From positions 97,099,343-97,163,342 of the forward strand of contig CP136065.1 of the NCBI GenBank assembly GCA_032622095.1: a stretch of 64,000 nucleotides of DNA. Direction: 5' to 3'. Each line of letters opens with the position of its first letter. The stretch's first letter is position 1. This document shows, piece after piece, positions 13,754 to 37,569 of the stretch. A program made the position numbers and the translations under genes. The notes under the pieces were generated by a model. That model saw only the letters and a list, made by a program, of their open reading frames with translations. It was not told where the DNA came from and ran no database searches. This DNA comes from Siphonodentalium dalli. Its lineage: Eukaryota > Mollusca > Scaphopoda > Gadilida > Siphonodentaliidae.

Positions 13754-14030
13754 CATCAATGAACGAATTAAGAACAAGGAGTTTCAAACACGACTCTAGG
13801 GTCATATGCTGCTAAGCTACTAATCAATGAAATATTTAAGAAAATATAGTTTCAAACTTGATTTTAGCGGTGCTATCCTGCTAAACTGCTAATCAATTAA
13901 ATAATTCAGAAAAGAGAGTTTCAAACTTGATTCAAGCGATGCTATTCTGCTAAATTGCTAATTAATGAAATAATTAAGAACAAAGTTTCAAACTCGATTC
14001 TGGCAGTTATATGCAGCTAAACGGCTAGTA
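13754..14030 (+). repeat. 69-bp tandem repeat, four copies
   Basis: Four consecutive units begin ATCAATGAA/ATCAATTAA/ATTAATGAA. Each carries AGTTTCAAAC(T/A)(T/C)GA at about position 27 and ends GCTAAACTGCTA or similar. Unit 2 counts 69 bp. Units differ at roughly 10-25% of positions, so the array is not recent. It lies 0.9-1.1 kb upstream of the GT92 start codon. Confidence 0.8.
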
Positions 14031-26805: not shown

Positions 26806-27611
26806 TTATACTCAGCATCAAATTTGTTGCAATTCTCTGTCAGTTGTTTAATTACGCATCGTACATGTACAATGGCCAGAGAGATAGTCAAGGAGGAAGC
26901 ATATACTCAGCATCAGATCTGTTGCAATTCTATATCAGTTGTTGAGTTACGCATCGTACATGTACAATGGCCAGAAAGGCAGTCATTGAGGAAGCATATA
27001 CTCAGCATCAGGAATGTTGCAGTTCTATATCAGTTGTTTAGTTACGCATCGTGCATGTACATGTACAATGGTAAGACAGGCAGTCAATGGGGAAGCATAT
27101 ACTCAGCATCAGGAATGTTGCAGTTCTATATCAGTTGTTTATTTACGCATCGTACATGTAAAATGGCCAGAAAGGCAGTCAATGAGGAAGTATATACTCA
27201 GCGTAGGGAATGTTGCAATTATATATCAGTTGTTTATTTACGCATCGCACATGAACAATGGCAAGAAAGGCAGTCAATGGGGAAGCATATAGTCAGCATC
27301 AGGTATGTTGCAATTCTATATCAGTTGTTGAGTTACACATCGTCCATGTACAATGGCAAGAAAGGCAGTCAATGGGGAAGCATATAGTCAGCATCAGGTA
27401 TGTTGCAATTATATATCAGTTGTTTATTTACGCATCGTACATGTAAAATGGCCGGAAAGGCAGTCAATGAGGAAGTATATACTCAGCATCGGGTATGTTG
27501 CAATTCTATATCAGTTGTTTATTTACGCATCGTACATGAACAATGGCAAGAAAGGCAGTCAATGGGGAAGCATATAGTCAGCATCAGGTATGTTGCAATT
27601 ATATATCAGTT
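26806..27611 (+). repeat. 95-bp minisatellite, ~8.5 units
   Basis: The unit carries ATACTCAGCATCAGG, TATATCAGTTGTTTATTTAC, GCATCGTACATGTAC and ATGGCCAGAAAGGCAGTC. The last motif occurs at about 26,873, 26,968, 27,068, 27,162, 27,257, 27,352, 27,447 and 27,542, giving a 95-bp period in the later units. Neighbouring units alternate in small variants: CAAGAAAG with GGGGAAGC, and CCRGAAAG with GAGGAAGT. The last four units show a two-unit (190-bp) higher-order pattern. The unit is not a multiple of three, so overlapping open frames up to 230 codons are repeat artefacts. Confidence 0.92.
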
Positions 27612-32913: not shown

Positions 32914-33318
32914 TACCAGCTTAGATATTGATACATTTAGTGTCGAATTTCAAATTGTTTAATGCAGCTTGGATACTCACATTTATTCATAAGATATGAC
33001 ATTTTTGCCCAGAATGGTATGTTATCGAACTAGGCTAATATCGCCATTAAACCGAGTTATATCAATTTGCGACATCTCCAACCCGAGTAATATGGATTTA
33101 CAACATCACCAAGTGCATCAACTCTACTTCGCTGTAAAATTATTAGGTGGATATCGATTTTTTGTCACGTCACTTATTTGAAAGAGTTGTCTTTCGTTCA
33201 CTGTAACCAAGCGCACCAAGTTGGTTCAACTCTTCTGAATGAATTGGAGCAGATAAATTTTGGATCACATTGAATTCGATTTCCTTAAACACTGATAAGG
33301 ACGAAGATATGATGTCGT
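32914..33318. other. short gene-free stretch before the recombinase relic
   Basis: No recognised domain. ATGTCGTTTGACATTGATG and then TTTTTTCCAG just before 33,341 could be the 5' part of the recombinase gene with an acceptor-like site, but this is unsupported. Confidence 0.3.
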
Positions 33319-35755
33319 TTGACATTGATGTTTTTTCCAGATGTAAAGGAACGAGATGAAACCTCGAATGTGGTTACTGAAAACCGAAAAAGACGATTAA
33401 AAATTTTTGGAGATGGCGACACCTCGGATTTCGTAAACAAAGTGAAAAACGTCAATACCGTAAGAAAAACTACAGCATATCTCCGATTAATTTGCAAATA
33501 GTTATCGGAAAATAACGAAATACGATATGAGACTATTGCTGAGATGCCTCCACACGAACTAGATCTGCAACTGCAAAGTTTGTTTTATGTCAGCCATACG
33601 ATTAGAAGGTGGCGAATATGAGCTCGGGACACTGGAAACCTTCCAGTTGAGCATCCAGCTACATTTGCGGAAAGTAGGGTCTAATATGAACATTATGACA
33701 GACCAAGAGATTAAACATTCTAGAGATGTCCGTTATGCAAAGATGAAAGATCTCAAAGGAGAGGGAATGGGAAACAAAATAAATAAGGCAGACAGTTACT
33801 CGCGACAAAAAGTTAACATGCTTTGGGAGAAAGGGATATTAGATGCAGGAAATCCTGATTCCATTGTTAACACAATGTGGTTCAATATGACAGCCCATTT
33901 CATAATACATGGTCACCATGACCACACCTCTATGTCATGAGTTATACTACATGCTCGCCAGGACCACACCTCTATTTCATGGGTTATACTACATGGTCGC
34001 CAGGACCACACCTCTATTTCATGGGTTATAATACGTGGTCGCCAGGACCACACCTCTATGTCATGGGTTATACTACTTGGTCGCCAGGACCACGCCTCTG
34101 TGTTGTGGGTTATACTACGTGGTCGCCAGGACCACGCCTCTATGTTGTGGGTTGTGCTACGTGGTCGCCAGGACCACGCCTCTATGTTGCGGGCTATACT
34201 ACGTGGTCGCCAGGACCACACTCTATGTCAAGGGTTATACTACGTGGTCACCAGGGCCACGCCTCTGTGTTGTGGATTATACTACGTGGTCGCCAGAACC
34301 ACACATCTATGTTCTGGGTTATACTATGTGGTCGCCATGACCACGCCTCTATGTCATGAGTTATACTACATGGTCGCCAGGACCACACCTCTATTTCATG
34401 GGTTATAATACATGGTCGCCAGGACCACACTTCTATTTCATGGGTTATACTACGTGGTCGCCAGGACCACACTTCTGTCATGGGTTATACTACTTGGTCG
34501 CCAGGACCACGCCTCTATATTGTGGGTTATACTACGTGGTCGCCAGGACCACGCCCTATGTTGTACTACGTGGTCGCCAGGACCACACCTCTATGTTGTG
34601 GGCTATACTACGTGGTCGCCAGGACCACACTCTATGTCAATGGTTATACTTCGTGGTCGCCAGGGCCACGCCTCTGTGTTATGAATTATACTACGTGGTC
34701 GCCAGAACCACACATATATGCTCTGGGTTATACTATGTGGTCACAAGGACCACGCCTCAATGTCATGGGTTATACTACGTGGTCGCGAGGACCACACCTC
34801 TATGTCATGGGTTATACTATACTTGGTCGCCAGGACCACGCCTCTATGTTGTGGGTTATACTATGTGGTCGCCAGGACCACGCCCTATGTTGTACTACGT
34901 GGTCGCCAGGGCCACGCCTCTGTGTTGCGGGTTATACTACGTGGTCGCCAGGACCACGCCCTATGTTGTACTACGTGGTCGCCAGGACCACGCCTCTATG
35001 TTGTGGGCTATACTACGTGGTCGCCAGGACCACACTCTATGTCAAGGGTTATACTTCGTGGTCGCCAGGGCCACGCCTCTGTGTTATGAATTATACTACG
35101 TGGTCGCCAGAACCACACATATATGCTCTGGGTTATACTATGTGGTCGCATGGACCACGCCTCTATGTCATGGGTTATACTACGTGGTCGCCAGGACCAC
35201 ACCTCTATGTCATGGGTTATACTATACTTGGTCGCCAGGACCACGCCTCTATGTTGTGGGTTATACTATGTGGTCGCCAGGACGACGCCCTATGTTGTAC
35301 TACGTGGTCGCCAGGGCCACGCCTCTGTGTTGCGGGTTATACTACGTGGTCGCCAGAACCACACATCTGTTTTGTGGGTTATACTACGTGGTTGCCATGA
35401 CCACACCTCTATATTGTGGGTTATACTACGTGGTCGCCATGACCACGCATCTATGTTGTGGGTTATACTACGTGGTCGCCAGGACCACACGTCTATGTCG
35501 TGGGGAGATGTATAATTGAAGCGAACATCTTGGGACGAAGAGTAATTGGAATTAACGGAAAGGGCAACATAAACAAGAAATGGAAATACATCGACAAGAA
35601 AATTTGCACCGAAGATGTTTGCAGTCCCTGGCAACCCTATATGCCCTATGTTTGTATATCTGGAAGTGTGTAAGAGACGACCTGCCGATTACCTTGAGTC
35701 TGAATCGTTTTTATTGGGTTGGATTGTCAAGGGGACCCAAAAACATTTTTCACAC
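33319..35755 (+). pseudogene. Crypton-like (DUF3504) tyrosine recombinase pseudogene, split by a minisatellite
   Basis: This is a relic of the eukaryotic tyrosine-recombinase family found in Crypton elements and in ZMYM/KIAA1958-type domesticated genes. It starts in frame 1 (DFVNKVKNVNTVRKTTAYL, then TAG at 33,499). After the stop come AEMPPHELDLQLQSLFYVS, a 1-bp shift at about 33,587, and RLEGGEYELGTLETFQLSIQ. Then follow SRDVRYAKMKDLKGEGMGNK, VNMLWEKGILD and NTMWFNMTAHF. The next motif is box I, in intact relatives like GLRGRQEHxxLxWGDV; here it is replaced by ~39 tandem 42-bp units. Beyond the array the same frame resumes: LRGRQDHTSMSWGDV, stop, LKRTSWDEE, stop, LELTERAT, stop, TRNGNTSTRKFAPKMF, AVPGNPICPMFVYLEV, CKRRPADYLESESFLLG, ending at TAA near 35,755. 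The C-terminal part with the tyrosine nucleophile is missing. At least five stops and one frameshift make it dead. Confidence 0.85.
33905..35500 (+). repeat. 42-bp minisatellite (~39 units) derived from recombinase box I codons
   Basis: Consensus unit: GGGTTATACTACGTGGTCGC followed by CAGGACCACGCCTCTATGTT and GT, 42 bp or 14 codons. I count about 39 GGTCGCC(A)-type cores between 33,911 and 35,472. Most are 42 bp apart; some are shortened (27-32 bp) or lengthened (44-45 bp). In the recombinase frame the unit reads LRGRQDHASMLWVI, a copy of the family's box I. Each unit contains the hairpin GTGGTC-GCCAG-GACCAC. A ~405-bp higher-order block (about 34,560-34,960) is repeated at about 34,965-35,300. 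All three forward frames are open for long stretches (up to 387 codons), which is a property of the 42-bp period, not evidence of a gene. Confidence 0.93.
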
Positions 35756-37569
35756 AGCTAAAAACAAAAACTCCTCCATATTGTTCAATTATGCTTGTCC
35801 TAAAAACGTAGAGGTAATGTAACATTGAAACTGCCTTTAAACAGTCAGAGTAGATTGTTTCTTGTAAAATTACTAAGTATCCGGTATACATATATCAGCC
35901 TAGGTCACTCCGAACATAAACTGCATGGACACATTATAAGCAATCACTGCCATATTAAAATGAGCTAATCACATTCACAAACCTGTAGTTGATAGGACAC
36001 TGACAGTAAGTGGTGAACATTCTAATATTTTTCCGAAAAAAGTTTATTTCTGTTTTTTTTCAGGGGTACCCACCAGCCCCTTCTTGCAAAAAATACATGT
36101 TTTTTGGGACCCACCCCCAAACTCGCATTGCAATTGATTTTCCAGGACTGTTCTGGTATTATATACTGTTCCGTATCGTCACCCATACTTAAATTTAATC
36201 AGTATCCACTATCCACTCTGATCCTACCTAGACACATCTAGAAAGTTCAAAGTTCAATTTGACTGAAAACAATTGGTCAAATATTAATTTTATGTCGATT
36301 CAGCTTGATTGAATATATAGAAGCTTCTTACAAGTGTATTATACAGTACTTGTCTAATATAACTGAATATGCCAGAATATAAAATCAATGAATGCATTGT
36401 GATTGTGGTTTGCAGATGTCCTATCCAAAGATTATTGTTATTAAATGTTGTTATTCATCAGTCCAACACCTCTACTGGACGGGGTGAATGTCTCAATGGT
36501 GATAAATGTGCCTGAGCGACGTATTGAAACATAAAAAAAAATCCTGCATATATGTGCATATACGACAAAAATATATGGGTGACATAAATTACACAGCCAT
36601 TAACGCTCTCGCTGCTAATTTTACATGTTACGACGTTGGGACCGCTATATCGGCCTGCCGCGGCCAACTGGGGAGCAGTCATATCACCCTGCCGCGGTAA
36701 AAGGGTTCGGAAACACGTTGACGCTAAAATTGCAAAATGCAAACAACGAGCTATCTATGTAAATTAACGTAAGTGACATTGAATGGTGACGCGCATTTCG
36801 ATTCTCATCGGACGATTGAAGTTAAGCAACACCGAGTCTAGTTAGTATGTTGATTGAGGCATTTAGCCCATTCATGTAAATGTATTGGACCTGTTCATGT
36901 CAACATTTTCAATGCAATGCCATTAAGAACACGATGCTTAGATGTGGTATCATCTTAGCTGTGAGAACATACACTTATCACAGTAATTGCGTGCAGACAG
37001 ATACACAATGAATGATATAGTCACCAAAACACTTCAACTGTCTTTTGCCAACCTGGTCAATGGGATCTGTATCTAGTATATTTAGTATGCCACATGTGTT
37101 ATATAGATGATAACACAATAAAACAAATCATCATATGGGTAATTACCTTTGTAATTAGGTGAAGAAAAGCCAAAAGGAAAACGATTGGAAAAACCGGAAA
37201 AGGGCGTGTTTTCTCGACCTATGAATGCCCTGGGAATTCTCTAAAATATATATTTTAATACTGGTCTTTAAAGAGGTATAATAATAGTTTGGGATATAGG
37301 TGTGTTTAACTGGTGCATTGTTCGGATATGCATGTGGTGTATATAAGAACGTGGTGTAAATAAGAACATGTTTAGCCAAATAATTCAGCCTGTCATGTGG
37401 GATTGAAGTTGTGATAGCTATGCCATTATATCCTCCCATCACATTCGTTCAATTTAGATCTAATAGAATAGCGATGCAATGGAAATTGATCATTTAGCAA
37501 TGAATATTAAGCATCATACATTTACGGCAGTGTTGCAATTAGAGTTATTCTTCGTGTAACTTAGTAACT
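35756..37569. other. gene-free intronic stretch
   Basis: No continuation of the recombinase domain and no other recognisable coding sequence. CTGCCGCGG appears twice at 36,656 and 36,690. Confidence 0.4.

Follow-up and report, generated by a model that had tools for sequence, protein, structure and literature searches.

A minisatellite formed from the box I codons of a decayed Crypton-like tyrosine recombinase in Siphonodentalium dalli

A minisatellite in the genome of the scaphopod Siphonodentalium dalli consists of repeated copies of one short run of codons, box I, of a DUF3504/Crypton-like tyrosine recombinase, and occupies the position of that box in a decayed copy of the gene. The array (locus A) lies in the stretch of 64,000 nucleotides that we analysed (‘the window’, C5:97,099,343-97,163,342, within a 2.23-Gb genome of nine contigs). 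A second array of the same unit is present in a sister copy of the element (locus B), and the two loci share both the junction between units and lesions in the surrounding gene. In the explanation that we regard as quite probable, box I was duplicated once in the common ancestor of the two loci, the already broken element was inserted twice, and the two arrays then grew separately.

Division of the array into individual units and analysis of the window with TRF both gave 39 copies, in agreement with the approximately 39 copies of a 42-bp unit reported in an initial annotation of this DNA. TRF placed them at 33,902-35,504, with a period of 42, and also identified a higher-order period of 405 bp. 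Unit lengths were 42 bp (24 units), 41 bp (seven), 35 bp (four), 44 bp (two) and 40 bp (one), with n = 39 when the last unit is included (its parsed length of 43 bp is an alignment artefact). Their translation in the forward frame is (I)LRGRQDHTSMLWV. The array contains 38 matches to a hairpin (described below), as compared to none expected from shuffled sequences, and a chance origin of the pattern is not at issue.

The corresponding gene is intact elsewhere in the same genome. One such relative (L053) encodes 422 amino acids from its ATG, and reads ...VNTMWFNTTTHF-ILRGRQEHTSILWG-DIELKETSQ... through box I. It matches the Pfam profiles PF12012 (DUF3504; 5e-21) and Phage_integrase (3e-6), and also contains a QRICH1 domain. 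A model of the recombinase fold was weak (pLDDT 65, pTM 0.45), with QRICH1, XerA and Cre as the best matches in the PDB (E ∼1e-6, with low TM-scores). Alignment of 18 relatives from the genome showed that R235, G236 and E239 of box I are invariant and that K268, H362, R365 and H388 are nearly so, followed by a tyrosine within an LNxY motif (LNEY or LNNY). Since this is the residue pattern of a tyrosine recombinase, we take R235 to be the first catalytic arginine, as is established for the family. An R-H-R-Y tetrad has been described for Crypton recombinases (PMC3212892). The genome is rich in DUF3504 recombinases: a first look gave 1171 candidates, the best 150 of which were scored and all exceeded the cut-off, with many of those 150 loci containing open frames of 550-660 amino acids.

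The array sits exactly at the box I codons of this recombinase (ILRGRQEHTSMLWG, residues 233-246 of the intact relative). The site reads HF-ILRGRQEHTSMLWGD-I in single-copy relatives and HF-(units)-GDV in the window; no residue is lost and no foreign sequence is present between HF and GD, such that locus A corresponds to one box I, repeated. The window encodes ...VNTMWFNMTAHF ahead of the array and ...SWGDV*LKRTS... past its last unit. Residues 131-247 of L053 match window positions 33,584-33,934 with 55% identity, and residues 237-333 match positions 35,465-35,755 in the same frame with 58% identity; the two matches overlap in box I only. A single box I is found in L053-L060, L064 and L085, and in the nearest outgroup of the two array-bearing copies (L062). 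The initial annotation had identified the unit as the recombinase's own box I, which is borne out by its place and by the single-box relatives; the unit also contains the invariant R235. That annotation had also proposed tandem duplication in place as opposed to random insertion, and the array indeed replaces exactly one box I. The idea that a pre-existing satellite was inserted into the gene, its likeness to box I being due to chance, can for practical purposes be set aside: the structure of the array is that of an ordinary minisatellite, but the unit encodes most of the box I residues at the correct place and in the correct frame, the flanks continue without a break into the first and the last unit, and elsewhere in the genome the unit occurs only in the sister recombinase copy.

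Table 1. Features at locus A (window coordinates)
Feature	Position	Strand	Remarks
5' terminal part of mobile element	32983..33191	+	TTATTCATAAGATAT...; sister copies TTATTAATTAGATAT; homology of A, B, L053-type copies and many dispersed elements begins at 32983
N-terminal recombinase codons (L053 aa 55-131)	33355..33585	+	frame differs from that of the next part
Frameshift: 2 nt inserted as compared to intact relatives	33582..33583	+	also in locus B; none in L053, L055 or the nearest outgroup L062
Left recombinase flank	33584..33901	+	ends ...NTMWFNMTAHF; translation and L053 match
Minisatellite	33902..35506	+	built of 39 ∼42-bp units, the two end units counted; source, box I codons I233-G246
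Higher-order block, copy 1 (405 bp)	34529..34933	+	398/405 identical to 34,934-35,338, ungapped
Higher-order block, copy 2 (405 bp)	34934..35338	+	ungapped comparison with copy 1
Last unit	35465..35506	+	continues into unbroken right flank, LRGRQDHTSMSWG-DV
Right recombinase flank	35507..35726	+	to about aa 322-333; three in-frame stops; sequence beyond lost
TAA stop	35513..35515	+	two codons past GD of box I; common to A and locus B
Dispersed high-copy repeat, ∼330 bp	35727..36055	.	adjoins truncated recombinase

The copy of the gene in the window is a pseudogene, with frameshifts, stop codons in both the array and its flanks, and loss of the C-terminal catalytic part. The flanks had been assigned to one recombinase in one frame. 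Comparison with L053 upholds this from position 33,584 onward; the sequence 5' of 33,585 is in a shifted frame, as indicated by the match of L053 residues 55-131 to positions 33,355-33,585 (a match in which the query numbering begins 4 residues before the ATG). On the right, the earlier reading of SWGDV followed by LKRTS had elided three stop codons (DV*LKRTSWDEE*LELTERAT*TRNG). A search of the window with L053 returned no residues past approximately 333, such that the catalytic H, the second R and the Y are absent from this copy. In a check against the DUF3504 profile, the left flank gave a weak match (PF12012, E 1.8e-5) that falls below the cut-off, and the right flank gave no match.

The array had been described as a ‘coding minisatellite’. 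This description is not supported: the copy is dead, the array contains stop codons and out-of-frame stretches (neither mentioned in the initial annotation) and is not one open reading frame, and the gene carries a frameshift and a stop that are shared with locus B. One might nevertheless suppose that box I expanded, and the expansion was retained, while the recombinase was still translated, with the additional copies of the catalytic motif altering its activity (as a functional or decoy repeat-bearing protein) and the element moving before it died. The unit does correspond to 14 codons, the left and right flanks are in one frame at both loci, and the clusters of indels in array A (-1 and -2; -8 and -1; +2 and -8, where the shift of -8 is seen as units of -7 and -1) each total a multiple of three. 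A unit length divisible by three is, however, expected one time in three, and the flanks share a frame because the indels in the array cancel to multiples of three, which represent at most three independent cases and are probably due to chance. The agreement in frame between the flanks is weak evidence, and does not show translation. The 42-bp unit is furthermore free of stops in all three forward frames, so that its openness in any one of them means little. Given also the stops within the array, the units shifted by -7, -1, +2 and -2, and the frameshift and the stop right after box I that A and B have in common, we consider an expansion under translation very unlikely; as judged from its sequence, the array has no sign of a constrained frame.

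Searches of the genome with the unit DNA and with a five-unit protein sequence matched the window and one other place only, in searches that skip very common words and score the best candidates, so that this absence is not absolute. The unit thus does not appear to be a genome-wide satellite, the outcome that the initial annotation had named as refuting its reading. Locus B (L021; C5:13,363,486-13,363,884) belongs to a sister copy of the element and comprises ten units, mostly of 40 bp. A decayed left recombinase flank precedes them, the last unit continues into GGGGAGATCTATAATTG, and downstream lie remnants of the remainder of the gene, among them a sequence resembling HRNTLSLNEY. Identity between the A and B flanks is approximately 75-81%, varying with the part compared. 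The two loci form a clade with 100% bootstrap support, for which the single-box copy L062 is the nearest outgroup (77% support).

Roughly 60 further recombinase loci were read and none contains an array in the recombinase domain. Several candidates for additional arrays or duplications were rejected. The low-identity protein matches were regarded as other repeats, and the two that were read, L092 and L093, proved to be unrelated minisatellites with 42-bp units (which are 97-98% homogeneous). No repeated box is present in L082 (C2:70.98 Mb) or L083 (C2:39.11 Mb), which had been candidates for a duplication; L082 has a deletion. A candidate array on C3 (L084), located 5' of a right-half fragment, was dismissed, the left half of the gene being absent there, and the left-half relatives L086-L089 stop short of box I.

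The units of both arrays are joined at the same point, TGGG-TT-ATA; this is clearest in A and in several units of B. Alignments indicated no short repeat at the two break points, either in the relatives or at the joint itself. A and B also have in common a +2 insertion at a KFF site, absent from L053, L055 and L062, and a TAA codon two codons past box I, absent from L053 and L062. The shared joint and the shared lesions together place the founding duplication and both lesions on the stem of A and B; the open reading frame of their common ancestor was probably already broken when the two loci split. The shared TAA could, for its part, have formed twice in parallel, by a C-to-T change in the CAA codon of each copy. 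On the proposed stem (leading to the window and to C5:13.36 Mb), a 42-bp stretch extending from two bases before I233 to the first G of G246 would have been duplicated in tandem once, and the +2 frameshift and the stop just past box I would have been acquired by the same lineage. That there was one founding event is an interpretation of these shared features, and the data do not explain the choice of box I over another segment.

At column 20 of the unit, all 39 units of A contain C and all ten units of B contain G, which argues that most of the growth of the arrays was separate. This difference would also fit two separate duplications at one place, and we weighed the possibility that a duplication-prone box I was duplicated independently in A and in B after they split. 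Such a history would account for GAC in every A unit and GAG in every B unit at the same column, for the lack of any unit type clearly in common, and for the differing unit lengths (42 in A as compared to mostly 40 in B). It would, however, require the same joint to form in both arrays with no microhomology favouring it, in a segment for which a duplicated box was seen in none of the roughly 60 other recombinase loci, and we therefore think it unlikely. Under a single founding duplication, unequal exchange or slippage, free of coding constraint, would have lengthened and shortened each array separately, to 39 units in A and approximately 10 in B.

Growth of array A continued until recently. 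The two 405-bp blocks are 98.3% identical, as compared to ∼75-81% for the flanks of A and B; the block copies are thus far closer to each other than A is to B, indicating that array A changed long after the two loci split. The comparison shows that this block, about ten units in length, was duplicated recently; the array was thus still expanding, as non-coding DNA.

The C at column 20 of the A units (which would have arisen by a GAG-to-GAC change) creates the hairpin GTGGTC-GCCAG-GACCAC. All six of its pairs are intact in 19 of the 39 units, and another 19 retain five. Folded as DNA, the A consensus reaches -8.0 kcal/mol (a value matched by 0.4% of shuffles), versus -3.9 kcal/mol for the single box of the relatives. 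The hairpin is missing from array B and from the relatives; it therefore arose after the founding duplication and cannot explain the start of the array, contrary to the suggestion in the initial annotation that it may have driven slippage. It may have aided growth in A, where the variability of the hairpin columns ranks fifth lowest among 42 circular shifts (the observed position included), which is not significant. We also considered whether the units might be recombinase binding sites, amplified for a role in transposition. The A consensus unit has the inverted arms (7 bp) and short spacer (5 bp) of such a site, in addition to its folding energy, but those arms are missing from B and from the relatives, known sites have arms of 11-13 bp and spacers of 6-8 bp (PMC3212892), and the array lies within the reading frame and not at the ends of the element. 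We give this reading almost no weight.

The homology between A and B begins at the base where every member of the family starts (TTATTAATTAGATAT, window position 32,983), and their upstream flanks are unrelated. This 5' boundary, the one feature here that speaks for transposition, would fit two insertions and not a segmental duplication. The element that inserted at the two places would have been broken and would have carried the duplication. Because the reading frame of the ancestor was probably already broken, movement in trans, by means of the recombinase of an intact relative, would be the likeliest route.

The ends of the element were compared among its relatives. TTATTAATTA is a direct repeat at the two apparent ends of L054 and L055 and is missing from those of L053 and L059; the window copy has no 3' end. 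In L053, L054, L055, L060 and L064, TTATTAATTAGAT is found at the 5' end and its inverse approximately 150 bp from the 3' end. The elements resemble Crypton and CryptonA elements and DUF3504 genes (PMC3212892) in being DNA elements with a tyrosine recombinase, in combining DUF3504 with a QRICH1-type N-terminal domain, and in their pattern of R, K, H-xx-R, H and Y. Cryptons are, however, described as having no terminal inverted repeats (PMC3212892), whereas the relatives examined here have a 15-base inverted motif near both ends (the window copy itself being dead). Given the ends observed, we refer to the family as ‘Crypton-like’ and do not file it as Crypton.

Intact recombinase elements end in a near-perfect palindrome of ∼140 bp immediately after the inverted 5' terminal motif (L053 2817-2954; also L054 and L059). 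The 5' end of the element (∼210 bp, 32983-33191) is also found in a high-copy dispersed family, and in L090 and L091 that ∼210-bp end is present at both termini, as inverted copies that enclose a long self-complementary middle. Copies of this type resemble foldback or miniature elements, and may use the Crypton-like recombinase.

Minisatellites and satellites derived from the bodies of transposable elements, including segments of their reading frames, have been reviewed (PMC9659126, PMC6947457); a partial CR1 ORF and L1 ORF2 are listed among the sources of arrays (PMC9659126), and such minisatellites have been surveyed in humans (PMC3389668). The claim in the initial annotation that no such expansion had been described must therefore be narrowed: in the open-access literature, which we covered in part, we found no description of a minisatellite located in a Crypton or at the site of a catalytic motif. 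Like the reviewed cases, locus A is a short segment that was tandemly duplicated and expanded within a transposon copy, and its unit is homologous to a single-copy segment of the element. Unlike them, it repeats a short catalytic motif taken from a tyrosine recombinase, and its founding junction is common to two insertions. Short flanking repeats, on which one route proposed by Haber and Louis depends (cited in PMC6947457), are absent here; that route is not a requirement for a minisatellite of this kind. Tetris of Drosophila virilis (PMC4079207) is likewise a DNA transposon with internal tandem repeats, which seeded a satellite. Tetris is described as a foldback element, whereas the repeats reported here lie within the reading frame of a recombinase and are confined to two places.

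Minisatellites born from transposons are thus already known, and locus A is an unusually legible case, in which the birthplace, the founding junction and the later growth of one minisatellite can all be read. It is legible in that the source codons are known, relatives with a single box are available, the junction recurs in a sister copy, and one block was duplicated recently. Pairs of this type separate the start of an array from its growth (here, the hairpin postdates the birth of the array). The case also suggests trans mobilisation of a broken recombinase copy; on protein function it has no bearing.

The window contains a second large minisatellite at 26807-27611 (95-bp unit, 8.4 copies), as well as a tandem repeat at 13755-14027 with four copies of a 69-bp unit (a length of 23 codons).
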